Shown here piece by piece: positions 29,661-64,000 of a stretch of 64,000 nt of DNA. Source of the DNA: Sipunculus nudus. Its lineage: Eukaryota; Annelida; Sipuncula; Golfingiida; Sipunculidae. Under the pieces are notes generated by a model, which worked only from the letters and a program-made list of their open reading frames with translations, was not told where the DNA came from and searched no databases. Location of the stretch: the NCBI GenBank assembly GCA_026874595.1, contig CM049313.1, positions 17,171,508 through 17,235,507 of the forward strand, written 5' to 3'. Numbering within the stretch: position 1 is the stretch's first letter; every line of letters starts with the position of its first letter. The position numbers and the translations under genes were made by a program.

Positions 29661-29699
29661 ATACTAAATATTCACCTAATTCTGTCTAATAATCATCTT

Positions 29700-30066
29700 A
29701 TTATTTTGTGCGCACAACTTATTATTTCGTGCGCACAACTTATTATTTTGTGCGCACAACTTATTATTTCGTGCGCACAACTTATTATTTTGTGCGAACA
29801 TCTTATTATTTTATGCGCACAACTTATTATTTTGTGCGAACATCTTATTATTTTGTGCGCACAACTTATTATTTCGTGCGCACAACTTATTATATTTTGT
29901 GCGCACAACTCATTATTTTGTGCGAACATCTTATTATTTTGTGCGCATGACTTATTATTTCGTGCGCACAACTTACTATTTCTTGCGCAAGACTTATCAT
30001 TTTGTGCACGTGATTTATTATTTCGTGCGCACGACTTAATATTTTGTGCGCACATCTTATTACACA
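29700..30066 (+). repeat. 21 bp palindromic minisatellite, array 1
   Basis: About 17 head-to-tail copies of CTTATTATTTTGTGCGCACAA. Each contains the perfect palindrome TTGTGCGCACAA or a near variant. Because 21 bp is seven codons, several frames stay open on both strands. Confidence 0.96.
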
Positions 30067-34205: not shown

Positions 34206-34337
34206 TTATCTCGTGCGCACGACTTACTAACTTGTGCGCACAACTTATTATTTTGTGCGCACGACTTTTAATTTTGTGCGCACGACTTATTATTTTGTGC
34301 GCACGACTTATTTTTTTTGTGCGCACGAGTTAATAAG
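34206..34337 (+). repeat. 21 bp palindromic minisatellite, array 2
   Basis: About six copies of CTTATTATTTTGTGCGCACGA variants, in the same orientation as array 1, preceded by GGACATGAGTAAAAAAATAT. Confidence 0.95.
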
Positions 34338-39055: not shown

Positions 39056-39385
39056 TTGTGCGCACGAAATAATAAGTTGCGCGCACGAAATGATAAGTTG
39101 AGCGCACAAAATAATAAGTTGAGCGCACAAAATGATAAGTCGTGCGCGCAAAATAATAAGTCGTGCGCACAAAATAATAAGTTGAGCGTACAAAATAATA
39201 AGTCGTGCGCACGAAATAATAAGTTGTGCGCACAAAATAATAAGTCGTGCGCACAAAATAATAAGTTGAGCGCACAAAATAATAAGTCGTGCGCGCAAAA
39301 TAATAAGTCGTGCGCACAAAATAATAAGTTGAGCGCACAAAATAATAAGTCGTGCGCACAAATTAATTAGTCGTGCGCACGAGAT
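39056..39385 (-). repeat. 21 bp palindromic minisatellite, array 3, inverted
   Basis: About 15 copies of the same unit, but on the opposite strand relative to arrays 1 and 2 (AAAATAATAAGTCGTGCGCAC on plus). It ends in GATAAATATTTTTTACTCAT, the reverse complement of the sequence that precedes array 2, so the array and its boundary are inverted together. Confidence 0.93.
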
Positions 39386-39404
39386 AAATATTTTTTACTC
39401 ATGT

Positions 39405-42412: not shown

Positions 42413-42583
42413 TTAATTGGTAGACAGCAGATCACCACAGGCCGCTCGTATCCGTTCGGCTATTGCTGGAGCGTCCAGTCGGAACAGTCCCGTCTGCCTG
42501 GTCTCCTGCCGTGCAGCTCCTATAGCCGACTTCACTGCTGTAAACACGGACTGTGCAGCGAGCATTGGTGGCTCCCCTATACC
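42413..42583 (-). CDS. Gene 1 terminal exon with catalytic Glu
   Basis: 171 bp after acceptor GTTCAG, 56 codons plus TAA (42413-42415). It begins [20 protein letters not shown] and includes [20 protein letters not shown]. The Glu of GEPP is the general base of the family. Sequence is well conserved despite the upstream stop. Confidence 0.95.
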   Translation of the reverse strand, partial: GIGEPPMLAAQSVFTAVKSAIGAARQETRQTGLFRLDAPAIAERIRAACGDLLSTN

Positions 42584-42902: not shown

Positions 42903-43186
42903 GTATATTGTTCAAAGTTGAACGTTTGAGAAAAACGTCACAATGACGTCACCTTTGATGAGTAAACAACGCCAACGTCCGGTCCGTCTTTCAGCATAGT
43001 GACGTTAAACTCCTGCGGGACGTTCCCGGTCGCCGGGATTTAGTAGCTGCCTGCTCCTTTTGTTAACAGCCGTCCCTCATCATCATATCTGATGTGTTCC
43101 AGCATTAGCCGACCGTAGCCCTGAAATAGTTTATTTTTATATTAATGATTCAGATGTTTATAATTATATTATTAGATATATATAAA

Positions 43187-43408: not shown

Positions 43409-46400
43409 CATTTTACTACATTATTTTCTGACCTGCAGAAAGCCTCCTTCGATTTGTCCAATGTCAATGCCCGGATTTAAACTTCGACCGACGTCCATCA
43501 CGATGTCCGTACGCAGCACCTGTAAATCAACCAATATGTTGACTTTTTTAAGGATGTCCAGGATATGTGGCATAGTAACACTACCCTTTTAAAGTAATTG
43601 AAAAGTAAAAAAAATAGTACAAAGGGAAATGTTGGTGTCTGTTCTACTTGAGCGCGATAGAAAATAAAGATTCGTATCAGCGGTTTTCAAATAAAATGTG
43701 TTTAAATGTTGTTTCAATTGAATAATTTGTAATTTCTCTGAAAGTAAATGTGAATTATGCTTAAAATCAAGAACAACAACCCCTTCCGATGTTTAACACC
43801 GCTATTTTGGTTCTGCGAGTAAGTGAACAGGACCAACGTTTGTCTTTTTACAATATCAGGGCCGTGTGATCAGTTATCCGATTGTACGCATGAGCGACAG
43901 ATCTTAAACTAGAAGTAGTCCAAAGATGAAAATAAACGGTTGTAAACACCTTTCTCAAGCCTGAAAGTAACGGAATACGAAGCTGTGTTCGCGCTATGTT
44001 TATGTTGGCGCCAGTGATCATACCCGGTCCACTTTTTAACACTCGTGTCCTGGAGTAAGGCAACGGTTTAAGTACATTTTGACAGGTAACATTTTATTTT
44101 AAAGAGATGCTATTTGTCGTGTTAATTCAATATGCTTTGTACATGATTAGGTCATTCAATGGTGTTCTTGAATATCGAGAACTAATGTTATAGAAAATGT
44201 GGACGATTTAAGAAGATATATGAATGATACAAAAGTTAAAAAAAACCATGTTTTTGTTACCTAGAGGTTAACTAGAAAGTTTGATAAAATCGTAGAAATA
44301 TTTCAAGAAAATCTATGAAAAATAATCAAACATCATGAAACGTGCAATTATCGGTTTTAAGACAGCCCATAAAAATCTTGACGGCTCACATGTTAATACT
44401 TAGGTTGTAAAACGCGCGTGAGGTATCACTTAATTGGTTTGGCTACACCGCCCTGAGGGACCTAGAGTAATAGGATTATGAACCTGTGTGTGCTTATGCA
44501 GGCATGATTTATCATTACACGCTCAGCACCTTGTCTTAACAACTATCGGTATTATATATGGTCGATTGTTTTGTCATTTAACTCATCAGTAGATCGTAGA
44601 TCAGTCTACGTTAAAGTTCGATTTCTAAGCATTTCTATGCCTCTGATATAAAGATTATCCTTAAGTTTTAAAATATTTGTCAATTTTAGGATAACGAAAC
44701 TTTGACACACTTCTGCGTTTGTCACGTGTGTTACGGGACTTACTTGATGTGCCCCCGTAAGACAGTCAATCTGAACCTCTGAGCAGCTCACCCTGTATGA
44801 AAAGTATTCATGCATGCGGCCTTGTTTTGTCTTGATGTCATAGTTGATCCGAGGGTATCTGTAGACAGAGTTGATCAAGCATATACATCATCGCATATCA
44901 TAAAGTCTAAATTTGATCAAGCATATATATCATCACATATCATTGTACAAAGTTGATCAAATATATATACAATGAAATATCATGACGACTAAAGTTGATC
45001 AAGTATATATATATATCATCATATATCATGACGTCTTCAGATTATCAAGTATATATATCATCACATATTATGATATCTTATTTTGGTCAATCACGCATAT
45101 CACCACATATCATGTTCGTATCTGACCGTTTCAGTAACGCTGTCTATACATATAGTAAACAGCATATTGATAAGCAGTTAAAATTCACTAGGCGATAAAC
45201 AGGATTTCTTATAAATAAACGATATAAAATTAGGTGGGCTTGTCTGTAAATACCAAATTTTTTAAACATTGTTTTATACATCATATACATACATTATACA
45301 TAATTATGAATTGTTGCAATTACTATTATTTTTTTCATCTTAGTATCATCTCAAGAAATATATATTCATGCGATTGAATAATTACAGGTTCCATAAACCT
45401 TCGATACATACGTATAAAGAGCAGTTGCAGAGAGTGATACGCTGTCAAGATATGCGCCCAATACCTGAAACAAGAAAATTATAAAAGTATTATATAAACA
45501 TTTTATTTAAAAATATTTATATCATAGTAAGCATTTTGTGTGTTTGATAATTTAACGCTAGAATGATTTAGAGTTTGGTAATCCCTCAAAGACTCGGTAA
45601 CCCTTTTACATCATATCGAAAAATAAATTGTTGTTAGATGTACACCAAGATGACCACCAAAAGCATACTGGGAACTTAATTAGTAACACAAATAACTCCT
45701 CACGTAGGGGCAATAAACCGCGATCGCCCAACGGTCATATACCTGCTCCTCAATGCATCAGGTCTCGGGGACGTCCTTATCGAACGCAAGTTTTATCAAT
45801 AGTTAACGACGTAAAGTTGATAAACCGATTATTTCACAAAGAATTATAAGTTCCTGTAATAAGACAAAATTTATCTTGCATATCATTACAAACTTATCAG
45901 TGCCATTCCACTGCACACCTTCTTACTCGACAGTATTGCCTTAACGCCACTTAATAATGATGATTATTTAGGTGTTACTTTAAATATTTGATACATTAAT
46001 AATAAGATTATAAGCAGCCTTTCAATTTCTATTTTACCAAAGGTAAGCAATATGTATTGTATACATGTCGTATAGTTTAAATGTTTACATTCTATGGGTT
46101 GACCATGGAATGTGTACATTTTATGGACCACTGTTATAAAATGTGTGCGTTCCATGGGTTAAGCCATAGAATGTGTACATTCATAGATAAAAACGACAGG
46201 ATATAGGCAGGGCATACCTAAAGGAGCATGTGGCTCGTGTTGCTAATTAAGAATGTCACTTCTTAAAGGCACAAAACACATTCATGTAAAACACTGAAAC
46301 AGGATTCACGACAAGGTGAACATGTTATGTATACCCTGCACCAGTCGGGACAATCCGACTCAGTAGACACTGACAATTGGGCTGGTAAGCCTAGTTGTGT

Positions 46401-47707: not shown

Positions 47708-50700
47708 TTGTTTGTCATCACTCTCCTGGCCACAATTTTGCCATAATCACCTTGAAACTTACAGGGATAATGGAAAACAAAATTTCTAGGTGCCCTATTG
47801 TTTTTGGTTAATATAGGTCAACAGTTAAGGTCAAGGTCATCGAAAAACCTCGAAATTTTATTTTCCTCATAACTTGGCCAAAAATGGTCGTATTAACCTC
47901 ATTCTAAGATCATTTTGTTCGTCTTTCCTTTCCCCATATCATGGTATGATCAACTTTTGTTGACTTTGTGTCACCTTGTCAGTATGTCTGTCTGTTCCTC
48001 TGTTGTTGTCAATTTTGACTACGGCCTTGATGTTCTGTCTGACATTTAGTACAGTACAGGCCACAATTTTGCAGCAATCACCTTGAAACTTTCAGAGATG
48101 ATGGAAAATTAAATTTCTAGGTGCCATATTGTTTTTGGTCAAAATAGGACAAAGGTCAAGGTCAAGGTCATCAAAACTTCTCAAAACGGTTTTTTCTTCA
48201 TATCTTTGTGACTATTAGTCGTATCTACTTCAACGATAGCTCATTTTAATCGTCATTCCAAGGCCTGTCATCTGGTGTGTAGCTGACTCAAATTTGCCGT
48301 AACCATGGTTACAAATTTTGGGGGAAAATCATGATATTCGAAAATAAGGGGTCTTATTTTTCTAACTTTGTCAGTTTTAAAGCTAGAGTGATCTAGTTTT
48401 TTGCATCAAGTAGCATTCAACTAGTACTACAAGATTTTATTACAAGTCTTGCAGTATCTCGTAAAATATCTCGTGAATAGAGATATTTCGAGATTTCATT
48501 CATCTTGCTCCAAAGGCCACATTATTGCAGGAATCTTTTTGAAACTGACATATTATAAGTCCTACACTAGTATCTCGAAATTGTTTTTTCATTTTTTGAA
48601 TAGGGCCGCTAGGGGGCGCTGGATGCGAACCTCCCGAACATATCATATTTTGGCCATATCTCCAAAATTATAAGCCTCAATTACATAAACTATAGCTTAT
48701 TTTCTTCCTCTGGGTCTTCTCCATAACCTAGTGTAGTCATCTGGTCACACTTTTGTGACACTTTGTCAGTGTGTCTGTCTGTTTGTCAGTTGTCCTCAAA
48801 TTCGCCTGCTTGCTGTTGCGTCTCACATATAGCATTCTACAGGCCACAGTTTTGAAAGAATCCTTTTGAAACTATAACATCTTAAGTCTTACACTAATAT
48901 CTCGAAACAAATTTTTCATTTTCCGGATATGGCCGCTAGGGGAGCTGAACTCGAACCTCTCCCAACATATCATGCTTTGGCAATATCTCCAAAACTATAA
49001 ACCTCAGTAACATAAACTGTAGCTTTTTTTCTTCCTTTGGGTCTTCTCCATAACCTGGAGTAGTCATCTGGACTCAATCTTGAATCACTTTGTCAGTGTT
49101 TTCGTCTGTTTGTCCGTTATCCTCAAATTCGCCTGCTTGTTGGTTCTTGCGTCTCACATATAGCATTCTATAGGCCACAGTTTTGACGGAATCCTTTTGA
49201 AACTATTACATCTTATGTCTTACACTAATTTCTAAAAATAATTTTTTCATTTTCCTGATATGGCCACTAGTGGGCGCTGCACACGACCCTCACACACATA
49301 CCATTGTATTTGCCATATCTCTACACCCAAAGCCTCAGTTACATAAGCTATAGCTTATTTTCTTCCTTTGAGTCTTCTCCATAACCTGATTAAGGCATAT
49401 GGTTTCAATCTTCTGTCACTTTGTCAGTGTGTCCATCTGTTTGTCCGTTATCCTCAAAGTCGCCTGCTTGCTGGTTCTTACGCCTTAAATATAGCATTCT
49501 ACAGGCCACAGCTTTGACGGAATCCTTTTGAAACTGGGACATCTCATGTCATACACTAATAATTCGAAACGCATTTGTCGTCTTCGGAATATGTCTGCTA
49601 GAGGGCGCTACAGTCGAGCCTCCCAAGTATATCATTAATTCGCCATACCTCCAAAACTATAAATCTAAATTACATAAATTATAACTCATTTTCTTCCTTT
49701 GAATCTTCTCAATCACCAGGTTATGTCATCTGGTGTCAATCTTGTCTCACAAAGTCAGCATGTCTGTCTGTTCGTCTTTTGTTGTCAGCTTTGTCTGCTT
49801 GCCTGTTCTTTTGTCTCATATGACATTCTACGGGCCACATATTCTCAGCAATGTCCCTGAGAGTCATTCCATTAATAGAAAACCGACAATTAGTTCTGTC
49901 TGTCCGTCTGTGTTTCACTTCCGATTTCCGGCAAGCGTTCGACCTATGGTCGTCTAGTTTGCATATTATTGGGAAGATTATAGGTCAAATTTTATATTTG
50001 ATGTTATTACAGAGTTTCCCTGTATTCCTCGTAATGTGAATTTCCTTAATCACATTTCCTCTCGTAAATTAGAATTTGATTTCCCCACGGCTTTCACTTG
50101 TTGTCATATATGTAGTCAAAAATGTGCATTTGAAAAATTGCCTCGCTTACATGTAAAACAATCAGAGATAAAAAAATAATTAATTGAAATACATGCCTTG
50201 CTGTGAGCACAAAATCGAAAAATATGCAATACATATTTTCATGGTAGAAATATATTATATGAGCATCGTCCACTAACGAGGACCGTTTGCAATATCCATC
50301 TATCACCGCCCACACAGACCGTCTTGTCATGGAAGCACCGAAAAGTGTACAATACTATATACATCCGTCTTGCAGCTGATCAAACGACAATCATGTGATC
50401 TTATTGAAGTCTTAAAAGACCAACATAAGAAACAAAAGCAGCTTAACCTTGATAAATAGTTCATATTAGAGTTTAGGTTAGGGTTGAAGATCTCTATTTG
50501 TAAGCAGTCATTGTGTCTCATCGATACTACGATACAGCATGCAAAGCGTATCGGTACCCGTATCGATGTGGTGTATCGATACGCATCGATATATTGAGTA
50601 GGTGTATAAACAGATTTTTTTTCTCACCAGAAAAGCAAGTTACTAGTGGTGACACCTACCCACTGTTCCCAGGCCCCGTCGGGATTTGCCTTCCTGTAGG

Positions 50701-53033
50701 GCTCGAGTCGCTGTTTGATTTTCTCACATGCTAACTGAAATAATTAAAAAAAGTATACAAAAGTCCGTGTCACACACCAGAAAAAAGCTGATGTACGGCA
50801 CTGAGGAACCAAACGCATGAAGTTGGAGGGGCGATTAATCTAAATTGAACAGATAAGATAAAATACTTGATATGTTGGAAACTTGCAAAAAGGAAAGCAT
50901 AATAAATCATGATGAGGCATAAATTATCAATTAAACACAATCACTGATAAGTTATGAATTCATGTTTTCATTTTATTATCATAAGTAGTGATTTGTTAAG
51001 ATATAGGAAGGAGCAGCACCTAGCAATATCAATATCGAGATATTTCATACAATTATCAGTCAAAAATGGGAGAGACATTAAATTAGCACAAGGAGTCATA
51101 TATTTTTGTATTGAACAGACAATTTATACGGATGTTATCCAGAATAAAGTTATGTCATATGAAAAATAAAGAATCAGTGAGAAAAGTAATATATATCTTT
51201 AGCCATATTCCTCTGAAGACGAAAACCTACTTTAACAGCCATGCCATTGACGTCTGATCCACGACTGCCGTTTGTATTGGGAGCGTTAGGCTTGGCACTG
51301 GTACTTGTTTCGCTCAGGTGGATTTTCTCACAAGGAATACCCAGAACCCTGCTTGCTACCTGGAATCAGTCGGACGTATCACATGAATAATGTTATTTTA
51401 AGGCACTGGATATTACGTCAGGCTGTCAAGTGATTGTGAAGGCGATAAGTACGAGGGTAGATACTCGAAACATAATCAACGGTCGGTTGAATAAACGCAT
51501 GATAAAAGGATTTAAAGTACTTTTAGAAGAGAAGTATAACAATCGACTTGAATTATAATTCTTCAGGCAAACCTTACCTGTATCATTTTAACATTTAAGC
51601 CTTGTCCCATTTCTGTACCTCCATGAGTGATCAATACAGATCCGTCACTGGCGTACACATGCACTAAAGCACCCGCCTAAAAGACAATCACTTGAATAGC
51701 TGTTAAAAGTGTAAATGTGTAACAATAGTCATATATCTAGTACTCTTGTTAGTAAACCGGTATTTCCGCTAGCGGAAAAAAGAAGTAAAGGTTCAACTCA
51801 AAATGTAAGGAAAACTCAAGACCACCACAAATAGTGCGTGATAAGTCCGTGATAAATCTTTTTACTGCTGGACTCATTTAATAGCCTATGCGCGAATTTT
51901 GCTTATAATTTAATTCAGGTGAGAAACTGTATTGGATAATATTCATATTAGGTTTAATAAAAAAAAATTAGATTTGTGGTACGCAATCACGGCACCACCA
52001 ATGCCTGGTGACCTTTGACCGCATTAAATATGCAGGGACTTTGTTGGAAATCAAACTTAGGCGAGTTTAGCCATTGTAATGTAGTTTTGGTGAGTTTCTT
52101 GAAAATCCATCAAAGCCCCTATAAGTTAACAGACTATGATAAAAGGTAACAGATAAGCGGACGGCCAGACGGCCTTCGGATGGACAGACGGACGGACCAT
52201 GGATGTACCATAATACGTCCTGTCATGGGCGGGCGTATAAAAATGTTTCCATACCGTTTAAATATGAAAAAATGACATTGAACTGTATGCCCCACCTTGC
52301 CCTGGGGAAAGGGAGATCAGTAAAATATTTTAAGGAAATTTTCAAAATATGTTTTTAACTCTTCATCGTGTAAACTTTGAAAATTTGGCTCTGTTAATAT
52401 CTCACTTACTTCGTGTATTATTTTACTTTCTAGAGTGTTCGTACATAGGAGCGACAAACCAACTGAAACATGCAATAAACAGGACAATTTGCACGCCGAA
52501 CATTACTGTAGTTATATTGTTTTATTATAAATAACCTCTAGTAGAGATGTGAACCGGACCGGTGCGTTCTACAATTTTGGCTTGGACCGGACCGCTTACA
52601 CGATATATCCAGACCAGACCGCTTACCTGATAGACCGGTCAGCACCTCTAAAATCTAGAGTTTTAGCACAATACCTAGGTTCATATTAATAAATGCAATT
52701 ATTTACCTGATTCAGAAAAGGTTTGGGTAATCCAAATGGATAAAAGATAGGCAGCGTGGCAATTCCTCTCTTCTGGTATTTGTTTTTCCTGAAAATAAAA
52801 TTAAGTGAATCAGTGACCAACAGAAACTTCTCGTCTTGGGGCAGAGCTCATGTAAGAGCCCACTTGGGTGTGTGTGTGGGGGGGGGGGGGGGGTGGTTAT
52901 GGTGCAATTTTGAATTGTTTCGAGGTATGAAACATGAAACGTGTAATATTTTCTATTTACAAGACTTTTATTACAGTCGGAAACCCGCAGGATGTCCAGT
53001 AACCAAATCTGCTCCTGTTACCAGTATTAGTAA

Positions 53034-53118
<85 letters not shown>

Positions 53119-56100
53119 AATGGTACACACAGAAAAGTGGATCATTGCCAGTGGGTTTCGAATTCACGATCTTCCGATTTCCGGTGCGGCTGCCTTAGTC
53201 CTCTTGGCCCTGACAGATCCCCAACTTCTGTGTATGTGTACACTTTTATAGGAACCAGCGAAGTTACGTCATGATAGTGACGTCATAGTGTCAGCCACTA
53301 CACGTGTCGGCATGGCGACTTTTGCATGCACCAGGGAGAACTGATGGCTTTTTTTCATGGGTTCGATTCCCACTGGCAGTGAACCACTTTGTTGAAAATT
53401 AGGCTCTTTAATCTTCCGAAATATATTTAAATGTTTCCCTTGAAATGTGACTATTATATATTTTCATTGAAAACATGAGGTGGACACAATTGGTTAGAAC
53501 AGACTATAGTACACGGACCTGTTAAACTGTTCAACTTGTTCAATCCGCTTTACATAATCGCTCTTTTTCAAACATTCCTGCCAGCATTTCTGCAGGCTGC
53601 AGCCTTCCACCCTTTGGCCCGTCACCATCATCTCTCCGTCCTTGTGAAAGTTCATCTCTTGTACCTGAAAACACCATGACAACCGATGAAAAAAAAACAC
53701 TTTCGTCCGTATTTCTAATTTAAATGTTATATTTATATACATTCAAATTGTCATATAACAATAAAATACGCTTATTAAAATTGACCTCGTATCGATTTTG
53801 ATTAAACAATAATTGTTAAAAGATAATGCGCACATTATAGTGATGACTCCACTAATATACCTAAGTCAATAATATAGCTTCATTGAAGACGGGGTGGCTA
53901 AATATACAGGTCTATAAGATAGCTTCATTGAATTTGGCGTGAGTCTGGTATATATCTATTATTTCATGTACTTCCACGTATATTACCTGATGCAAGGGAA
54001 GGCCCAGAAAGCTGGCCACGCTCGCTATAACATTTTCCGACAAGAACAAAGCCTGCGGGGAGCCAAACCCACGGAACGCTGTGGCGCTGGGGAGGTTGGT
54101 ACGGCACGCCCGGCAGGACACTCTCATGTTGGGGACGGAGTACACGTTACCACCGAGTTCTGCGATATGATTTGCCACCTGGAAGAATATAAAGGATATA
54201 GACAGTCCATCAGGATCCATTTTGTATCAGAGAAACCCTGAGGAAGGCATAGTCCAGAACTGTACGCTGACGGGCACGAACGTTAAACATCCCTTTTTCC
54301 TGCCGTCAGATCAAGCCGGAAGGCTTGTCCCTGTTGAAAGCGCAAATGGAAGCTCTACCAACGGCAAGTATTAAGATAGATAGGGCCGGATCTAGGATTT
54401 GGGAAAAGGGGGTTGGGGCCGGGGGGGGGGGGGGGGGGAACCCAGGAGGACTTATGATAAAGCCTAAAAGGTTTCCAGGTCCGGAAATTGGTGGGGGGTC
54501 CAGGCCGCAAAAATTTGTCTGAACCTTTAAAACAAAGGTTAAAGCGGCTGAAAAAGAGGGGCCCGGACCTCCTGCCCCCCCTCCCCCCCGTTGATCCGCT
54601 TCTGATAGCGTCAGATATCTTATGATTGTCCTTCGACAAAATATCCCCGAACTTAACACGAACAGGCCTTCCCGCTTGATCTGACTGCTGGAAGGACGGA
54701 ATGTTTCATCTTCTTGCTGGAAGATGACGCGTAGAGGCTTTTGGAGCGATGTTTGTAAAGGCCAATCAGCTTCTAGTTCTGGACCAGGAAAGACATGGAA
54801 TGTATCTTGACGTGAAAGCTCTGGTATTTCTGGCATGGGAGATGCTGATTGTCCCTTATATGTGACATGACTTTGCGGTTACAACCTTTTAAATTGTTCT
54901 TGTCTTGTAAACCCTTTGTTACATATTTAAATCAAGTTTAAAGGATACTGGTATACGTGTTTAATGTAAACACATAATTTCAGATAAATGCATAAAACCA
55001 CTCTTGAGAATTGCTGACAAATAATACTCGAAGAAGGCAAGAAAGAATCATGGGGATACATATTTTACGAATGATTAATAAGAGAAAGAAACTTAGGAAA
55101 TTGTAATATTTAAAAAATGTACTAATAAATTAACCAATATGGCGTAAAAGTTTCATCTGAGATAATGAACCAAAAATCTGCTTATGCACTGACTAAAATA
55201 TTGTTTAGGAGATGCATAGATTACAAGAAAACCGCCAAAATAGCTTATACTGAGTTAAACAGTTAAAAAGTTATACTGTTATTAAATATCAATGATATAG
55301 GGCATAAACTGTGGAAAGACGCAGAATTCTGAAGATTGCGCAACTAGTCTAGGTAAAGCTGACGGAGATCTCAGAACAGCATTAAGCTAGCCTAGCCGAT
55401 CCAAGGAAACCATAGCGCCAAAGGAAACCAAAGTAAATGTTCAAGGTGCAGACTATCCTCTGTGGAAGGGTCATGCTGTAACCCTATAGAACAGAAAACG
55501 TTTTCTTTGGTTTCTAATTCATATCACATTCTCTAGCACAACGTTCCTATTCTTTCCACATTTCCTACATAAAAATGAAACATGAAAAAAAATCAAATAT
55601 CTTAAGCTTCCAGCCGATTAATCATTTCATATATGTGCAAGGTAACAATAGCATAGGAGACATGACTCCTTGCCGTGCTCAATTTCTGGTTTAGTATTCG
55701 TCAGACTCCATCCCATTTAGCTATATATATCAATAAGCCCGAATAGCCTTAAATTTTTGAATATTATGTCCAACTGTGTTTATCTCCAGTATTATTGATG
55801 AGTACAAAATAATAATGTACATTGCTGTTAACTACCAGTGATATGGAGTTACATTTGCGTGACGACGGAGAAACATTTGTAGGTGGCACTACCACTCATG
55901 CGTATGAGATAACGTTATTTAAGTTCTATGGACAGGATAAGCTAGAGAGAGAGAGAGAGAGAGAATGAGCGAGAAATGAGAGAGAGAGAGAGAGAGTGAG
56001 AGAGAGAGAGAGATAATAAAGAGAGAGGGATGTAATGATTAATAGCTTAGCTTGTTTAGTGTACAGGGAAATGGTACCGGAGTCTTGTTACCGCCGATAG

Positions 56101-59100
56101 TAATCGAACAAATGAAATTCCGATTGCTAATTTACTCCTTACCGAAGCCGATTGTCAGTCATTATTTCAAGAGATAGCAGTAAATGCAGGTAAACTGACA
56201 TTCAATTGTGAATGCTATATAAAAAGGGCATGTCATATTATCACCACTTATAAAAAAGCTGGAAGCCGGTATTAAAAGAGTAGAAGGTTTGATGAAGTTC
56301 AGAATCGCAGTGTGGACCATTATAAGAGATATTGTTTTGGAATATTCTGAGCAAAGGCCGTTCCTGACTTTATTCACGAATCTGTTGAAATAAAATAAGT
56401 GGTGATCGGGAAGATTGTTTTCCCCTTGATCCACGACTCTTTCATTATAATGAACTGTTGTTTGAAAGCTTTGAGCTTATCAGAGGCGGATATAGGATAT
56501 AGCCAAAGGGGTCCAACCTAGGAGGACTAATCACAAAACCTAAAAAAGGTCCTTAGGTCAGGGGAGGGGAGGGGTCCAGGCGGCAAAAATTGCTCTGAGA
56601 CCATTAACCAATAACGCTCAGCTGAATTCAGGGGAAATTAAACAATGGGCGACATAACTCCAAGTGGTGTCCTATATAAAGGGAGAAATGCATAGATTAA
56701 AAAAATCTAGGTGGCGCCACCATTCTTCAGGAACTAATGAAACCCTCCATGACTAATATGCATGCAAAAAATCATGGCGATCAATGCATTAGTTATTCAT
56801 ATACTGGAATTTTTGTATCAAATTTTTAATTATTCAAGGGGGGTAAATTTGAGCCTCATATCCGAAGGATATGGGAAACAGAGACCTTATATTAGGTTTC
56901 ATGAAGACTTTTCATGGACCTCCTTGGATATCAAATTAGAAGATTCTAGGTCAAACATAGATGATCTTTTTCTTGTAAAAAGATGACTGCTTCATTTGAA
57001 GGTCTCAAAAATATCGAAAAAATACAGGAGGCGCCACCCCTTCTACAGGTTCTGATGAAACACTCCATGATAAATATGCATGCAAAGAAGAACAGCAATC
57101 AATGCATCAGTTATTCAGATATTGGAATTTTTTATAAAGTTTTTAGTTATTCGAGGGGGGGGGGGGGGTAATATATGAGCCTCATAGCTGAAGGAAATGG
57201 GTAACAGAGACCTAATTTCACGCCTCGGTGAAATTTTAAATGGACCTCCTTGAATGTCAAGGTCAAACAGAGACGAGTTGTACAATGTCAACGGATGAGC
57301 GCTTCATTTGAAGGTGTCAAAAAGAGAGAAAGAATGCGTAAAAATTCTAAAAAAAAAATCAGGAGGCGCCATCAGTCTACAGGAACTGATAAAACACTCC
57401 ATGATCAATATGCATGCAAAGAATCAGGGCAATCAATGCATTAATAATTCAAATACAGGAGCCTCACATTTTAAATTATTCGGGGGGGGGGGGGGTTAAC
57501 AGATATAGATAACAGACACCTAATTCCAGGTTTCTATGAAGACTTATGGACCTCTTAATTTAGAAGATAAGTTATAAGATTCTAGGTCAAAAAGTGATGA
57601 TTAGTGCTTTTTATTTATTTGGGGAGTATTTTCGAGCAAAATAGCTTAAGGGGTATCGGTAACAGGAACTTTGCAGTAATAATTCAGAAAGGAGTGACAA
57701 TTTTGAAATTATGTATATACAAAAATACATTTTCACTGAAAGCCTTAATTTATACATCATATTTTTTTCATTATATATCAGTACATTGATTTAGGGGAGT
57801 AACTATCCAATATTAAAACCATTGACTTCATGGGAGCGGCGACTCTTTAAATTATTGTTTTGCAGCTTCAGAATTTCCAGCCGCATTATATATCACTGTG
57901 GCGCAAATATCCACTACTGTTTATAGGTCCACAATATGCTTGCAAGGCCATTTGTTATTATATAATTCCAATATAAAATGTAAATTCACACTTGGTACGA
58001 TGAACCTAATGTTCTATGCCTGGCACACAATAACATTTAATAAGAGAACTATGCATTTGTTATATAATTATCCGCCAGATCGCAGCGCCTGTCTATGGTG
58101 TTGAATCATAGCAACTCTAAAACATACCGAGTGGACCCATTTTATAAGACACCATGGTCCACATCACGAAGCCAGAGGCGTAAGACATTGTTTAAAATCA
58201 TTTACCGATAATATTTAAATAATTTCTATCAATTAAGTATTGACGGACTTACATAATCAGAGACATCTTCTGTGTGGCCGCCATTTAGGTACATGGTCAA
58301 ACTCCAGGCATGGATACGTCCGTCTTGCATGAATCCAACCTGGTGGGAAAAAGATACATTTCCGGCTCAAATTAGTAATGAAATTAATAGTTAAAGTAAA
58401 ACGAACTTTTCTAAATAGCAATTTGGTGCCAGCTGGCGTGCCAGGTTGGATCCCAGGCAAAGGTATGAGACTGGGATGTAGTGACCCATCCAAAGACGGT
58501 GGTCTTCTCCGGGCCCTCGGTTTTTCTCCATCCCCACAGACTAACCGAACGCCATCATCCGAGCCATGGAGAGTGCCCCCATGACTTTCTTAACTGTGTG
58601 TAAATCAATGAAAAATAGATAACTTTATATTTATAAAAGTTACAGGTATTTTGTATAAATATGTTATATCATTTCAATATGAGATTATTTCATAATTAAA
58701 AAGAGTTATTCTAAACTGCTAGTTTTCTGGACAGACAAGCTGTTACTTGATTATTTTCATTATATTTGAATTTTTGCCACCGTTATTGCCTGTTGTTACT
58801 TACTTTGTATCTTCCTAACATGCCGTGACTTTTCCCTGTTAGACGCATGTCTTCCTCCTGATCCAGGACACACCGCACAGGTTTGTTGTACCTTAAAATA
58901 GATAAAATACCGTAAATGTCGTAATAAGCGCCCCTTGTCGTAATATGGGCCCTTATGAAGATGCGGTTCCTGACAAACAATTGTCAACAATGCAAAACGG
59001 ACATTATTTCTCATCATAAATGGTCACATAAATACTACACTGTTGATCGAATAAATTTTACGAGCACATGAGTCGGTTTTGACATATCTGGATGACGGAA

Positions 59101-62100
59101 CTTTCACATCATTCCTTGGTTAATAAGCCAAAGTAGGGCAAATCTTGGCTCTGAGGTGGCGCTCATTAATAGATAAAAATAAATATATAAATACATACCT
59201 TATTATCCTGGCTTTCGCTGATGATACCTTCATCCGAGAAGAATAATTTTAAGGACTATTATATAGTTTTTATAACTTAACCTTGCTGCAATTAAAAACA
59301 AATGTGCAAATGCTGACAAAAATATATTTTCCCTTATGATATAATAGAATTAAAAAAAATAAGGTTCTGAAGACCGTGCTATTACTTACTTCATGGCTGC
59401 TAAGCTTGCAGGGCCTATCACCATGTAAGACTGGTACTGCTTGCCTCCAAAACTTCCACCTGTTAAATATACGATACATGACGAAAACTAAGTATTTACA
59501 TATTTAAATTAAAGTGAACCTGCGGAATCTGGCTCTATTCTTCTAAGCTAATATTTAAGATTTTTAATCAGGTCTATTTTTATACCACAGGTGAGCTGAT
59601 TCTCCGTCTAGTCTGCTGTGATAATGAGTACATACCTATATGCAAAAAAATACAACAAAACCACCCCGGCACACAGATAACTATCTTCACATCAAATGTT
59701 TTATACGTTGTAAATGTTAACCGTGTGAGCAAACACAGTGACCTGTGTCTGCTTACAGTAACATCACTGAGGCCAGAGGACAACTTCCAAAGAAAGAGAA
59801 GAAATTAAAGGAGAGACACATCAGAGACACCATTTGAAAGGTTGAAAAAAATATCACTTGTGCAATTGCGTGGTACCACTACCAGGGGGCGTGTATGCTA
59901 CATTTATCTTTTGCACCCTTGATCGCGCCCAATGCAAGTTTTGTTTCCACTCGGACACAGGGGTATATTAGCAGATAATGATATTTTCAGACAGGTACAC
60001 ACTGTATATTATGTACATTTAACATACCTAGGTTGTTAACATATTCCTGTAAGGCAAGTAAATGAGTAAGAATCTTACGATACATACCCACATGTTTAAT
60101 TTTTATCACAATCCTGTTTACTGGCACTCCAAGCACGTCAGCAACAATTCTCTGTAAAAAATATAATATAATGTCCAGTTAATATTGTATTTAGACTAAG
60201 TTAAAATAGACATCAATTCCGAATATACTTATGCAGGGACGAAGGAAAACAATGCTTTAAGGACCCAAAGTCTTTAACTCAGGCTATTCACCTGCCTTTT
60301 CTATAAAAGCTTTGTGAATTAAAGCCTACTCTGCGTATTAATGATCTCCATTTAATTCCTGTCAAAACCTTATAATGCTTCCTAAATGGACGTATCACCT
60401 TGTTTATCTACAAGCCGTTCGTAAACACGCACATGTTGACAAAAGATACAAATTCAAGCTAAGGTGGTTGGTTGCATATATTCAGAAATTCAAAGTCTCT
60501 TGTTGCAAAACCTCTTTGAAAAATTGGGTTTGTGTGACTTGTCTTCAGATGTCCTTGTTCAATTGTATTTTGTGGACGTTACAAACAGGTGGATATGAGC
60601 AAAAACGACAGCCTGTGTGCGGTTGGATCAGCGTTTCTGGCCTACTTTGTAAAAGGTTCAAAGAATGTACTTTAGTTAATAGACGTACGATATTCAACTA
60701 GACCGGAAATCACTTATGTTCAAAAACACCTGTGACTAGGAGGTTACATTTTGATCTTTGTATGTTTGATTGAGGTTTTTTTTAAGTGTCAGAACTAAAG
60801 TCTTGGTTGGGCCGTTACAATAGTCTGGTTCATTTCCGCAAGACCACCTGTTTTTTGCTATGAAGTTTATATTCGTTACATTCCAAGGGTAAAGCATGTT
60901 AATGTGTGGTAGAAAATTTAAGGGCCTAGTTATCAATATGATAAATACCTTCTAGAAGAAACATAATTATTTTACATATGATATATCAGTCTAAATGTTA
61001 CAACATATTGGGCCCTTCAAAGACGATTAAGGTTAAATAAATGGTCCCATGCACAACTGCATCAATTGACAGCCGCTGATTGGATTGTCATGTTACCCTT
61101 TAAAAAATATAACCAACTAAAACAAAGATGGCACACCTGATCTGTGAGACCTTAATAAAGAGTAAAAGAAGTCGCAAAACATAAATTGAATTGTCTTATT
61201 ATTCCTTAACTTAAAAATTCAGAAAGCTCAATATGGAAGTTAAGAAAACTTTAAGAAATTTATCTTCAAAAACAGAGTTTACAAAGCTTGATGGAACATT
61301 ATATAGGTTAGGCTGGCCGAGTCGATGCTATGGTTAAGGCCTTATTCCTCCCACTAACAGAGCCATCATGCTCTTACTGTGTTGCTAAGCACAGGAACTG
61401 CCAATTCGCGGCGAATTAAATACCTAAATTAAGAGTTTGCACTGATTAACGTCCTTCCGTACATGGAATCACGTTTTACTTTCCTCAGCAAACGTTAATA
61501 TTAAAGCCCAGGCGGGTATGAATAGCCAGCTTAGTTATACCTTTTAGTTTTCAGATTTTACCAACCTGCATATAATCCGGACTCTGAGTAGCACAGTGTA
61601 CCACCATCTCATTCTTCTCACCTCCGGGAACAGCCAGAGCTGCCAGAGGTTCCATGTAGAAGTGTTCCTGAGGACCCATCTCAAGCTCCCCCTCCAGAAC
61701 GTGGTCTGCCTCCGTCATCCCCGCATCCACATCACCCATCTCAAATACATTCGGGGGCGCGAGGAATGACTCGGCTGCTACGGCGTCCTGTATCAGATAA
61801 AAAACGATGGAACGGTGTTTTTCTATAGATTAATATTATGAAAGTTTTAGGTGTTTTTTTTTTAATTATTATATGATATTAAAAGGTAAAAAACCGCTGT
61901 GGTACCTTGTACGAGAATTATAAAACTGCGATACAATTATCTAACGACTTGTTAAGAATCCTCCAGTATAAAAGAACGTAACACCGCCAAATGCAAAGAA
62001 AATGCTGGAAGCTGCTTTTATTCAGGTGAGGAATTGGACACAAGCCGTAAGTTGAATGGCAGTGTTCTTAGATTTTTGAATGCAGAGGGTTAACAATAGA

Positions 62101-64000
62101 ATATCTTAAACGTAAAGGTCTAAATGTAAAAGATGGAATACATGCTTAAAGGCTTGTATTGTTCAGTTTATAGGGTTTTTTTGAAGATGTGTAAATTAAT
62201 GTAAACCATGAAGACATCTTTATAGGCACTTAATAGTTGATACAGGACTAATTTTTTGTACGGCCTCATAAATGCCCGTTTTTTTCCATTGAGTTGTCGG
62301 AAACGATGTCGAGTGTGTCACTGGCGGCCCAAATTTTGCCTACACATCTTGAGAAATTTGACATAATTTATGAAATTTCGCAAAATTTACCACAGCGCCA
62401 TCAACCGACACTACAACATTCTACCAAGGGAAGACACGGTACATTGAAAACACAATGGCACTAATTTCCGTTTTTATTTGGGTTTTGAAATGTCGGAAAC
62501 TATGACATTTATGTCGAAGGGATATTATTTTCCATATAATCCCTTAAATCTGGAGAAATAAGTCTTTTTTATTAGGAAATTCTGGGAGGGTAAGGTTACC
62601 CAGAGTATTCTGCCCTTGAACTCGGCCAATGCAAAAACCCGTCCCTGACAAGCCAGCCGAGTGGCTCAGACCTGTTCCACCGTAAAACCGGGTAATATGG
62701 CAGGAATACAAAATTTCTTACCTTAGTGGTTAAAATTGCGGGAACAATATCTTCATATTCAATCTGAACTTTCTCTGATGCTTGTTTGGCCTTGTCTCTT
62801 GACTCGGCTACAATCACTCCAATCGGATGTCCGACACAAGTTACCTACACGGATAAGACAAAAGTCTGCTAGGTTTTTATAATATCTTCATATTGTAATC
62901 TGACTTATAGGTGCTGAATAAAATTTTTCCCACACAAACCTATATTCTCAAAATAAAAAGTCAATTTTATTATTGTGTCGGTCCGGCTGATGACCCGAAT
63001 ACAGGAAGGAATATTCACAAATGTAGAGAAACATTTGCACGATTGAATATGGGAATATGGGCCGAATAAGTGAATGAAAACATCTAGGTAACTTATGTAC
63101 CAATGAACCTGGGAATAAGGGTCATTAATTGAATGAAAACACTAGTTGCGGAATACCCTATCATTAGGGTAGCATGTATTCCTGAGAAATCATATTCCTA
63201 GTGTTAAGTTGTATCAGTTGGATCCCGTGATTTAGTGTATGTTATTAAATGCTTAGGAAAATCAAGCCATCTACACCATACTTTATATATCTAACTAACA
63301 CAATTAATCCTTCTCTCCTTCGGGTCATAAAATGTGCAGTTAGGCTGCGTTCATATGATATATACAGAGCCTGGGAGATGACATTGTCAAAATATTTATT
63401 AATCCGTTGGCACATTTACTAATCCGTGTGCATGAAAAACTGAACCGAGTCTATCCAAGATGGCAGACCTATAGGAAAATATATACAGGAACTATGTAGG
63501 AGTCCGTGCGCATGGATTAATAAATATTTTTACCATGTCGTCTCCTAGAATCCGGGTAAATATGCGATAAGTGATGTTCGTTCCTTATTATTTTGGTCCA
63601 ATTATTTTTTCTTATTTATTTGGCCCCTTGGAAATAAGATTGAACCGGTGATGTCAAAAGACGTTAGATCAAGCTGAGGGTAAAATATGATAACCGGGTC
63701 CCTATGATAAATATAAAATGCGATAAGCGTATCTCATTCCGCATATGAACAAATAATGAAATAAATGGTCCAAGATAAAATATATTGTTTCTGCCTACAG
63801 CCTACCCCAGATCTTATACCGGGTTCTAGAAAGGCAGCCTTATGCAGACACGTTTGTTACCTTGTCTGTTGCAAATAAGGTATCCGATTTCAGTATAGAG
63901 AAGTTGTTTGATCCAGGTATATCTTTATGTGTGAGAAAATCAACAACTCCCGAGACATCCAGGGCGGCTGACGGGTCAATGCTAAGTATCCGAGCGTGAG
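42413..64000 (-). CDS. Gene 1: XDH/aldehyde oxidase-like molybdo-flavoenzyme, 5' partial, with in-frame stop
   Basis: Eighteen minus-strand exons join in one frame with GT...AG introns throughout. They cover about 702 codons, from the hammerhead subdomain through the molybdenum domain to the C-terminus, the length expected for this half of a roughly 1,330-residue family protein. The molybdopterin- and substrate-site motifs are PQEHFYMEP (Gln equivalent to bovine XDH Gln767), [20 protein letters not shown] (Arg912 and Phe914 kept), [10 protein letters not shown] and GIGEPPM (catalytic Glu1261). XDH Glu802 is replaced by Gln, and the Arg880 position appears to be His (alignment less certain). 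This argues against classical xanthine dehydrogenase and for an aldehyde-oxidase-like or divergent activity. Codon 27 of the penultimate exon is TAA. Unless this is a sequencing error, the protein loses its last 85 residues including the catalytic Glu. No canonical AATAAA was noticed in the roughly 500 bases after the normal stop. Confidence 0.93.
42811..42899. repeat. (TCTA)n followed by (TA)n
   Basis: A compound microsatellite in the last intron of gene 1, ending 53 bp before the 42953 exon edge. Confidence 0.97.
42953..43120 (-). CDS. Gene 1 penultimate exon, contains in-frame TAA
   Basis: 168 bp between acceptor ATTTCAG and donor GTGACG. It encodes [20 protein letters not shown] and KGAGSY, then the stop, then [20 protein letters not shown] and [11 protein letters not shown] has TYKIPAFGSIP here, so the stop replaces the conserved Lys. 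Confidence 0.95.
43040..43042 (-). other. In-frame TAA stop at the conserved Lys of gene 1
   Basis: The minus-strand codons read AGC TAC TAA ATC CCG. One change in the first base (AAA to TAA) would explain it. The exon on both sides, its splice sites and all other exons remain open. Confidence 0.93.
43188..43229. repeat. (AT)n microsatellite, intronic
   Basis: TA dinucleotides in the intron between exons 43433-43519 and 42953-43120. Confidence 0.95.
43354..43404. repeat. (AT)n microsatellite, intronic
   Basis: A second TA tract in the same intron, 28 bp from the exon edge at 43433. Confidence 0.95.
43433..43519 (-). CDS. Gene 1 exon: [11 protein letters not shown]
   Basis: 87 bp, phase 0 at both ends. 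It encodes [20 protein letters not shown] and GQIEGGFLQ, one of the best-conserved segments of the molybdenum domain ([23 protein letters not shown]). Donor GTCAGA is a weak form. Confidence 0.95.
44744..44858 (-). CDS. Gene 1 exon: [17 protein letters not shown]
   Basis: 115 bp completing a split Thr codon. It encodes [20 protein letters not shown] and [18 protein letters not shown], matching the family pattern [20 protein letters not shown]. Confidence 0.95.
44870..45115 (+). repeat. Intronic tandem repeat, unit about 52 bp
   Basis: About five diverged copies of a unit with GTTGATCAAG, then CATATATATCATCACATATC and a variable spacer. It starts within 15 bp of the acceptor side of exon 44744-44858. 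Confidence 0.85.
45412..45464 (-). CDS. Gene 1 exon: [17 protein letters not shown]
   Basis: 53 bp, 17 codons plus two bases, after acceptor TTTCAG and before donor GTATGT. XDH has AAYMDTVSLSATGFY at this place. Confidence 0.93.
46061..47230. mobile_element. Candidate TIR element with perfect 15 bp ends
   Basis: ATACATGTCGTATAG at 46061-46075 is exactly inverted at 47216-47230. Internal words of the type GAATGTGTACATTC (near-palindromic) recur at both ends. No coding capacity. It lies in the intron 45465-50659 of gene 1. A poly(G) run (about 46651-46670) is inside. Confidence 0.5.
47485..47570. repeat. (AT)n and (GT)n compound microsatellite
   Basis: TA, CA/TA and TG dinucleotide tracts in succession. 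Confidence 0.95.
47660..49880 (+). repeat. About 330 bp tandem array in a gene 1 intron
   Basis: GGCCACA recurs at 47728, 48059, 48515, 48842, 49173, 49504 and 49833; apart from one 456 bp interval the spacings are 327-331 bp. Other phased words are TTTGTCAGTGTGTCTGTCTG and a CTAGGGGGCGCTG-like core (48604, 48931, 49262, 49593). The first units carry TCAAGGTCA. About seven diverged units; no credible coding. Confidence 0.93.
50515..50605. repeat. Cluster of ATCGATAC / CGTATCG words
   Basis: ATCGATACTACGATAC, GCGTATCGGTACCCGTATCG and GTATCGATACGCATCGATAT lie within 90 bp next to an exon. They look like the end of a small dispersed repeat; identity unknown. Confidence 0.45.
50660..50734 (-). 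CDS. Gene 1 exon: [20 protein letters not shown]
   Basis: 75 bp, phase 0. It ends AWEQW before donor GTAGGT. XDH has [20 protein letters not shown]. Confidence 0.95.
51231..51359 (-). CDS. Gene 1 exon: [20 protein letters not shown]
   Basis: 129 bp, phase 0. It continues [19 protein letters not shown] and MAVK. ETST followed by PN and then DVNG is the conserved substrate-channel segment of the family (ETSTNTVPN and DLNG in XDH). Confidence 0.95.
51578..51676 (-). CDS. Gene 1 exon: [11 protein letters not shown]
   Basis: 99 bp, phase 0. It encodes [20 protein letters not shown] and [23 protein letters not shown] is the family's signature molybdopterin-binding loop. Confidence 0.96.
52542..52650. 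mobile_element. Very short TIR element, hAT-like ends
   Basis: 109 bp. It begins TAGAGATGTGAACCGG and ends CCGGTCAGCACCTCTA, imperfect inverted repeats, with accumulated GGACCGG words inside. The flanking ACCTCTAG and AAATCTAG may be a decayed 8 bp target duplication, as hAT elements make. Confidence 0.5.
52707..52788 (-). CDS. Gene 1 exon: [15 protein letters not shown]
   Basis: 82 bp that completes the Arg split after the exon at 53519-53664. It encodes [20 protein letters not shown] and PKPFLNQ (XDH: KKRGLCIIPTKFGISF and PFLNQ). Confidence 0.94.
53035..53114. repeat. (AT)n followed by (GA)n, intronic
   Basis: A TA tract of about 54 bp passes directly into a GA tract of about 26 bp. A run of 14 G lies nearby at about 52879-52892. 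Confidence 0.97.
53115..53400. mobile_element. Two inverted SINE-like pieces with B-box motifs
   Basis: On the minus strand, GTGAATTCGAAACCCACTGG (plus 53149-53168) resembles a tRNA T-arm followed by CAATGATCCACTTTT. On the plus strand, ATGGGTTCGATTCCCACTGG (53358-53377) is followed by CAGTGAACCACTTT. The two are in opposite orientation and share the downstream words, so they look like two copies of one tRNA-derived SINE. Confidence 0.5.
53519..53664 (-). CDS. Gene 1 exon: [20 protein letters not shown]
   Basis: 146 bp. It begins [15 protein letters not shown] and ends EQVEQFN plus a split Arg. XDH has NLYKEGDLTHFNQKLEGFTL and PRCWEECL. Donor GTCCGT is unusual but the frame requires it. Confidence 0.93.
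53987..54178 (-). CDS. Gene 1 exon: [16 protein letters not shown]
   Basis: 192 bp, phase 0. It encodes [39 protein letters not shown] and [20 protein letters not shown]. Arg912 and Phe914 of XDH are kept. In place of the MERALFHMDN helix, which holds Arg880, the protein has a divergent segment with His. Confidence 0.96.
54306..54836. repeat. Intronic dispersed repeat bounded by 30 bp inverted segments
   Basis: 54306-54335 is inverted at 54655-54684 (26 of 30 bases by eye). Between them is a G-rich repeat (a GATCTAGGATTTGGGAAAAG start, an 18 G run, CCCAGGAGGACTTATGATAA) that also occurs at 56480-56640. A 176-codon minus-strand frame runs through it, but most of it is low-complexity. Confidence 0.6.
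54840..55940. other. Intron DNA, nothing recognised
   Basis: AT-rich part of the large intron between the exons at 58253 and 54178. Confidence 0.45.
55944..56028. repeat. (GA)n microsatellite
   Basis: Interrupted GA repeats over about 85 bp. Confidence 0.97.
56480..56640. repeat. Second copy of the G-rich dispersed repeat
   Basis: GAGGCGGATATAGGATATAG, CCTAGGAGGACTAATCACAA and GGTCCAGGCGGCAAAAATTG parallel 54380-54530. Confidence 0.75.
56700..57510 (+). repeat. About 317-335 bp tandem array with GGCGCCA cores
   Basis: GGCGCCACC or GGCGCCATC at 56713, 57030 and 57365, each followed by an ACAGGAACTGATGAAACACT-like block and ATATGCATGCAAAGAA. Each unit also has a G run at the same place (6 G, then about 14, then about 14). 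Confidence 0.9.
58253..58339 (-). CDS. Gene 1 exon: [12 protein letters not shown]
   Basis: 87 bp, phase 0. It encodes [20 protein letters not shown] and GHTEDVSDY, matching family KVGFMKTGTVVALEVDHFSN and GNTQDLS. Confidence 0.95.
58804..58891 (-). CDS. Gene 1 exon: [14 protein letters not shown]
   Basis: 88 bp completing a split Lys. It encodes [20 protein letters not shown] and SHGMLGRYK (XDH: [20 protein letters not shown] and HPFLARYK). Confidence 0.96.
59390..59459 (-). CDS. Gene 1 exon: [10 protein letters not shown]
   Basis: 70 bp. It encodes [20 protein letters not shown] and AAMK. XDH has GGGFGGKETR here; its Glu (bovine 802, purine binding) is replaced by Gln. Confidence 0.96.
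60088..60151 (-). CDS. Gene 1 exon: [16 protein letters not shown]
   Basis: 64 bp. It encodes [20 protein letters not shown] and VG; XDH has AKMLGVPANRIVVRVKRMGG. Confidence 0.95.
60152..61565. other. Intron of gene 1
   Basis: AT-rich sequence without recognisable repeats or coding. A 108-codon plus-strand frame at 60375-60701 has no family signature. Confidence 0.5.
61566..61787 (-). CDS. Gene 1 exon: PQEHFYMEP
   Basis: 222 bp, phase 0. It encodes [60 protein letters not shown] and [10 protein letters not shown]. The Gln of QEHFY corresponds to bovine XDH Gln767, which contacts the molybdenum oxo ligand. Confidence 0.97.
61788..62721. other. Intron of gene 1
   Basis: No recognisable element. 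Confidence 0.5.
62722..62844 (-). CDS. Gene 1 exon: [14 protein letters not shown]
   Basis: 123 bp, phase 0 at both ends. It encodes [40 protein letters not shown] and K; XDH has VTCVGHIIGAVVADTPEH. The start choice at GTA follows acceptor GTGTAG. Confidence 0.96.
62845..63860. other. Intron of gene 1
   Basis: No recognisable coding. Short near-repeats such as GTGCATG.A.TAATAAATATTT at about 63430 and 63505 are the only structure noted. Confidence 0.45.
63861..64000 (-). CDS. Gene 1 exon, hammerhead subdomain, runs off the window
   Basis: At least 140 bp, ending at donor GTAACA. It encodes [40 protein letters not shown] and LFATDK; XDH has AKIKSIDTSEAKKVPGFVCF and DDVPGSN. The rest of the gene (2Fe-2S and FAD domains) must lie at higher coordinates. 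Confidence 0.96.

Follow-up and report, generated by a model that had tools for sequence, protein, structure and literature searches.

An in-frame stop codon in one member of a tandem XDH/AO-family gene array of Sipunculus nudus probably marks a young pseudogene or null allele

A 64,000-nucleotide stretch of the Sipunculus nudus genome (the window; C8:17171508-17235507, in an assembly of 1.43 Gb and 153 contigs) carries on its minus strand a gene of the XDH/AO family, here called W, whose penultimate coding exon is interrupted by a stop codon. Has W lost its function, or is the stop an error of the assembly, or is it spliced around or read through? Re-reading the assembled sequence gave TTA on the plus strand at window positions 43040-43042 (C8:17214547-17214549), that is, TAA on the coding strand, confirming the in-frame stop that an earlier note on this DNA had reported. 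It occupies codon 27 of the exon, where the family has Lys within the motif YKIPA; the alignment places it at Lys1228 in the numbering of the XDH chains, and the flanking peptide matches those chains on both sides.

The stop is the sole lesion among the 31 exons of W that were found. Seventeen coding exons lie complete within the window, all on the minus strand: Ea (62722-62844), Eb (61566-61787), Ec (60088-60151), Ed (59390-59459), Ee (58804-58891), Ef (58253-58339), Eg (53987-54178, with the motif TAFRGFG), Eh (53519-53664), Ei (52707-52788), Ej (51578-51676), Ek (51231-51359), El (50660-50734), Em (45412-45464), En (44744-44858), Eo (43433-43519), the penultimate Ep (42953-43120; 168 nt, phase 0/0, AG/GT boundaries) and the last, Eq (42413-42583), which bears the Glu of the GEPP motif as well as the natural TAA terminator. 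Joined, they give 657 codons without a frameshift, and all internal boundaries are AG/GT, so the kept frame and splice sites described previously are borne out. Exon 15 (63861-64000) is cut by the window end, with 36 nt more beyond it. The count of 18 exons in frame given in the earlier note thus stands, as 17 complete and one cut, but these are not the whole gene: 13 more lie outside the window, up to C8:17263938, all of them open and with AG/GT boundaries. Exon 14 of W was compared from an inner start, and the sequence is open further left to an AG. 'Intact' here refers to the 31 exons found; the start exon and those that fall between 8 and 9 or between 11 and 13 are not among them, and further lesions could hide in parts of the 5' half. 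One candidate exon match (seed 12) was dropped for want of plausible exon boundaries. A second set of exons for the Mo-cofactor domain was sought in the window; a single set was found, and remains at 1548-2426 proved to be exons of a neighbouring gene copy.

An all-against-all comparison of the open reading frames in the window returned mostly repeats. One intron of W contains a 1.9-kb stretch with 331-bp units (window 48059-49960) that is absent from the corresponding intron of the neighbouring copy A; a 95.6% copy of the stretch lies at C8:17261954-17263859. Elsewhere in the window, three arrays whose 21-bp unit contains the palindrome GTGCGCAC (29697-30062, 34213-34336 and 39058-39387) sit inside larger direct repeats, about 29.7-34 kb versus 34-39 kb.

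The assignment to the XDH/AO family of molybdo-flavoproteins follows from the domains found in W and their sequence along the protein: 2Fe-2S, then FAD, then Mo-cofactor. A Pfam search with three joined pieces of W gave Fer2 (3.8e-08), Fer2_2 (3.9e-31), MoCoBD_1 (4.2e-78) and MoCoBD_2 (9.3e-86). The FAD_binding_5 domain (PF00941) appeared twice, at 5.9e-07 (29.9 bits, just over the cut-off of 27) and at 1.4e-05 (25.4 bits, below it), and Ald_Xan_dh_C stayed below its cut-off on the part given (3.5e-06; 27.7 versus 31.3). By score W resembles XDH more than AOX3 (416.7 versus 347.8 bits, with a query in which a few residues had been filled in after the family pattern); the matched chains are bovine XDH and mouse AOX3. 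Glu802 is the substrate residue of xanthine dehydrogenase, and at its position all four copies of the array described below have Gln, W reading GGSFGGKQ in exon Ed versus GGGFGGKE. At the Arg880 position W appears to have His. The FAD motif has diverged in W and in the copies B and C (GGSLMCRKVD-like), in exons that are still open and have a dN/dS of 0.24-0.33. Given this motif and the Gln at the Glu802 position, the likeness to XDH need not extend to the substrate of W. Another XDH-like sequence in the assembly is of a different kind: a 72.5-kb contig (C116:50001-60000) encodes a bacterial-type xanthine dehydrogenase in one frame of 1301 codons, and is probably a bacterial contaminant or associate.

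What would the stop do to W? As the earlier note had it, 85 codons lie between the premature stop and the natural TAA, and the Glu of the GEPP motif, residue 1261 in XDH chain numbering, is encoded downstream in the last exon; we take this position to be the catalytic base of the Mo-cofactor domain. Any protein made from W would lack these 85 residues and, with them, presumably its activity. The transcript may itself be short-lived. By the usual rule, nonsense-mediated decay affects transcripts in which the stop precedes the last exon junction by more than about 50-55 nt; in W the distance is 87 nt, and decay of the transcript would therefore be expected.

The Lys that W has lost is kept in the other copies read. 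A disabling change in a pseudogene should be absent from relatives, and the homologous exon reads Lys in all ten of the other copies in this genome in which it was read: in A, B and C of the same array, and at all seven of the further loci (C3/C14) that held the exon among the 11 given, the exon not being shown at the other four. This agrees with the family Lys claimed from the sequence beforehand, and none of the other copies read shares the stop of W. A more distant copy of the same subfamily (C3:66837701-66840200) has a different lesion in the homologous exon, a TAG 12 codons upstream of the site in W.

W does not stand alone. Across the 312 kb read around it, which contain no N, four copies follow each other in tandem (A, W, B and C), and their 17 Mo-domain exons align gap-free and keep AG/GT; five of the exon matches in B and C were 1-2 bases too short at first and were completed. 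Three of the four copies are broken. Copy A has a TGA in its version of exon Ee and is truncated at the 5' end, where exons 1-11 gave no match with E below 1e-3; its exon 13 (2316-2426) and part of its exon 14 (1548-1652), both on the minus strand, lie inside the window. The same TGA is common to three extra partial blocks of exons Ea-Eg that belong to A, one of them without Ef and one with Eb interrupted. Copy B has a TAG in its version of exon Ea and a 1-bp insertion, hence a frameshift, in FeS exon 4, and C shows no stop or frameshift in its 31 exons found.

Parts of the array have been amplified. To the left of the window, C8:17147285-17171501 holds the three extra, partly incomplete copies of the Ea-Eg block of A at ~99% identity, together with two extra copies of exon 15. 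Outside the window at C8:17250243-17252057, tandem repeats of ~89 bp directly upstream of the real exon resemble FeS exon 4 and encode QCGFCSPG-like peptides; similar repeats occur in B and C, and the repeat array apparently grew from an exon.

These surroundings bear on one way of dismissing the stop, namely that it is a sequencing or assembly error, that the true base gives Lys and that W is functional. A single substitution is all that such an error would have to supply, and the constraint otherwise visible on W is what a functional gene would show. Set against this, the lesion is a substitution and involves no indel, the 312 kb around it are free of N, and the lesions of the neighbours show that decay in the array is real. 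A DNA search of the whole assembly, which scores the best candidates only, listed 10 matches; W itself was followed by A at 97%, and a second near-identical copy of W was not among them. The assembly error that had been offered as an alternative is accordingly quite unlikely. With neighbouring paralogues in a tandem array the stop becomes far less surprising, and in this setting a fixed pseudogene or a segregating null allele is likelier than an assembly error. In principle, the 2.8% difference between their introns would allow A to be the other haplotype of W, misplaced in tandem; its own stop, its amplified block and the lack of exons 1-11 all speak against this.

If the stop is real, splicing might still remove it, and two routes would do so, both keeping the frame and the exon with the GEPP motif: use of an internal CAG/GAG acceptor, with the junction at 43013/43012 and GAG (43010-43012, minus strand) as the first codon, or skipping of the whole 168-nt exon Ep. 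The substitution even creates a branch-point-like CTACTAA. The internal acceptor itself is weak, however: it has no pyrimidine tract and scores 0.07. The model was built from 103 real acceptors, whose median score is 10.5 and of which two score as low; the exon's own acceptor, kept out of the model, reaches 7.16. Of 272 AGs inside exons of W and C, 52 equal or exceed the internal acceptor, so the site proposed for a bypass looks like any ordinary exonic AG. Its use in phase was correctly predicted to keep the frame, with a loss of 36 codons (108 nt) where about 37 had been stated. Either product would be missing part of the Mo-cofactor domain, 36 residues through the internal acceptor or 56 through the exon skip, and we consider rescue by splicing very unlikely.

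Tolerance of the stop at the level of translation, either by readthrough or recoding of the TAA or because the short protein functions, is harder still to credit and can be regarded as extremely unlikely. The rest of W is intact in the exons found, as a gene in use would be. Against this stand the loss of the Glu1261 position, the relatives, which read Lys at the site, and the natural terminator, which is TAA in all four copies. TAA-A is not known to be a readthrough context.

How long ago, then, was W broken? Between W and A, 31 of 1962 coding positions differ once stops are disregarded, with a dN of 0.010, a dS of 0.037 and a ratio of 0.27; in the alignable parts of the introns the count is 418 of 14986 (2.8%). 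Polarised by B and C, the W branch has 6 nonsynonymous changes, 5 synonymous changes and 1 stop, and the A branch 7, 6 and 1, respectively; 7 further W-A changes are unpolarised, 6 of them synonymous. Neutrality of W over the whole time after the split would predict ~21 nonsynonymous changes, giving P = 1.1e-4 for six or fewer, or P = 3.5e-4 for seven or fewer when the unpolarised one is counted on the W branch. Assuming a ratio of 0.25 before the loss and equal halves of the W-A divergence, the neutral part of the W branch has an upper bound of 0.42, or 0.50 with the unpolarised change. These substitution counts indicate that selection maintained W over about half or more of the period after its split from A, and thus that the stop is recent. 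Constraint is still visible on the W branch, as expected of a recent loss; a relaxation of it is not yet measurable, and the case for loss of function is therefore made by the stop itself. There are nevertheless hints of loosened constraint in a Val to Lys and a Gly to Arg change in W, at residues common to A, B and C, and 2 of the 6 nonsynonymous changes share one codon. Gene conversion between the copies could distort this dating; the identity of W to A drops to 86-93% towards the 5' side.

Taken together, W is very probably a pseudogene or null allele of recent origin, and the array one that evolves by birth and death. This is the alternative that the earlier note had phrased as a very recent pseudogene or null allele and that fits a stop private to W, decaying neighbours and constraint until fairly recently. 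A single first-position substitution would have turned a Lys codon into TAA and so recently inactivated W, and redundancy with the other copies may have permitted the loss; A and B carry unrelated lesions of their own, and C shows none in the exons found. The array could instead be losing XDH/AO-like enzymes under selection and not drift, in which case the nonsense changes in W, A, B and the C3 copy, independent of each other and in otherwise intact copies, would be segregating nulls and C would have been kept on C8; this we consider unlikely. Within 312 kb the array has one copy without a lesion in the exons found, one with a single recent stop, one with two lesions and one that is both truncated and amplified. 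Such events are well known; the locus illustrates them cleanly and is a useful warning for annotation, and it calls for no new mechanism.

Several known systems invite comparison. With bovine XDH and mouse AOX3, W has in common the domains of the family, with a strong match to XDH and a weaker one to AOX3, and it differs from both in its premature stop, the Gln at the Glu802 position and the diverged FAD motif. In mammalian AOX clusters, tandem aldehyde oxidase paralogues have been lost one by one in some lineages. The array described here resembles them in the one-by-one loss of tandem copies, in a different animal and with several copies at different stages of decay in one array. The portion of PMC6147048 consulted contains nothing on the loss of copies in animals. 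According to a survey of human polymorphic pseudogenes (PMC11576641), many of the genes that are disrupted in some people and not in others belong to multigene families, and drug metabolism is named among the most affected systems. W, known from one assembly, resembles those genes in carrying a probable loss-of-function change within a family whose copies are presumably redundant.
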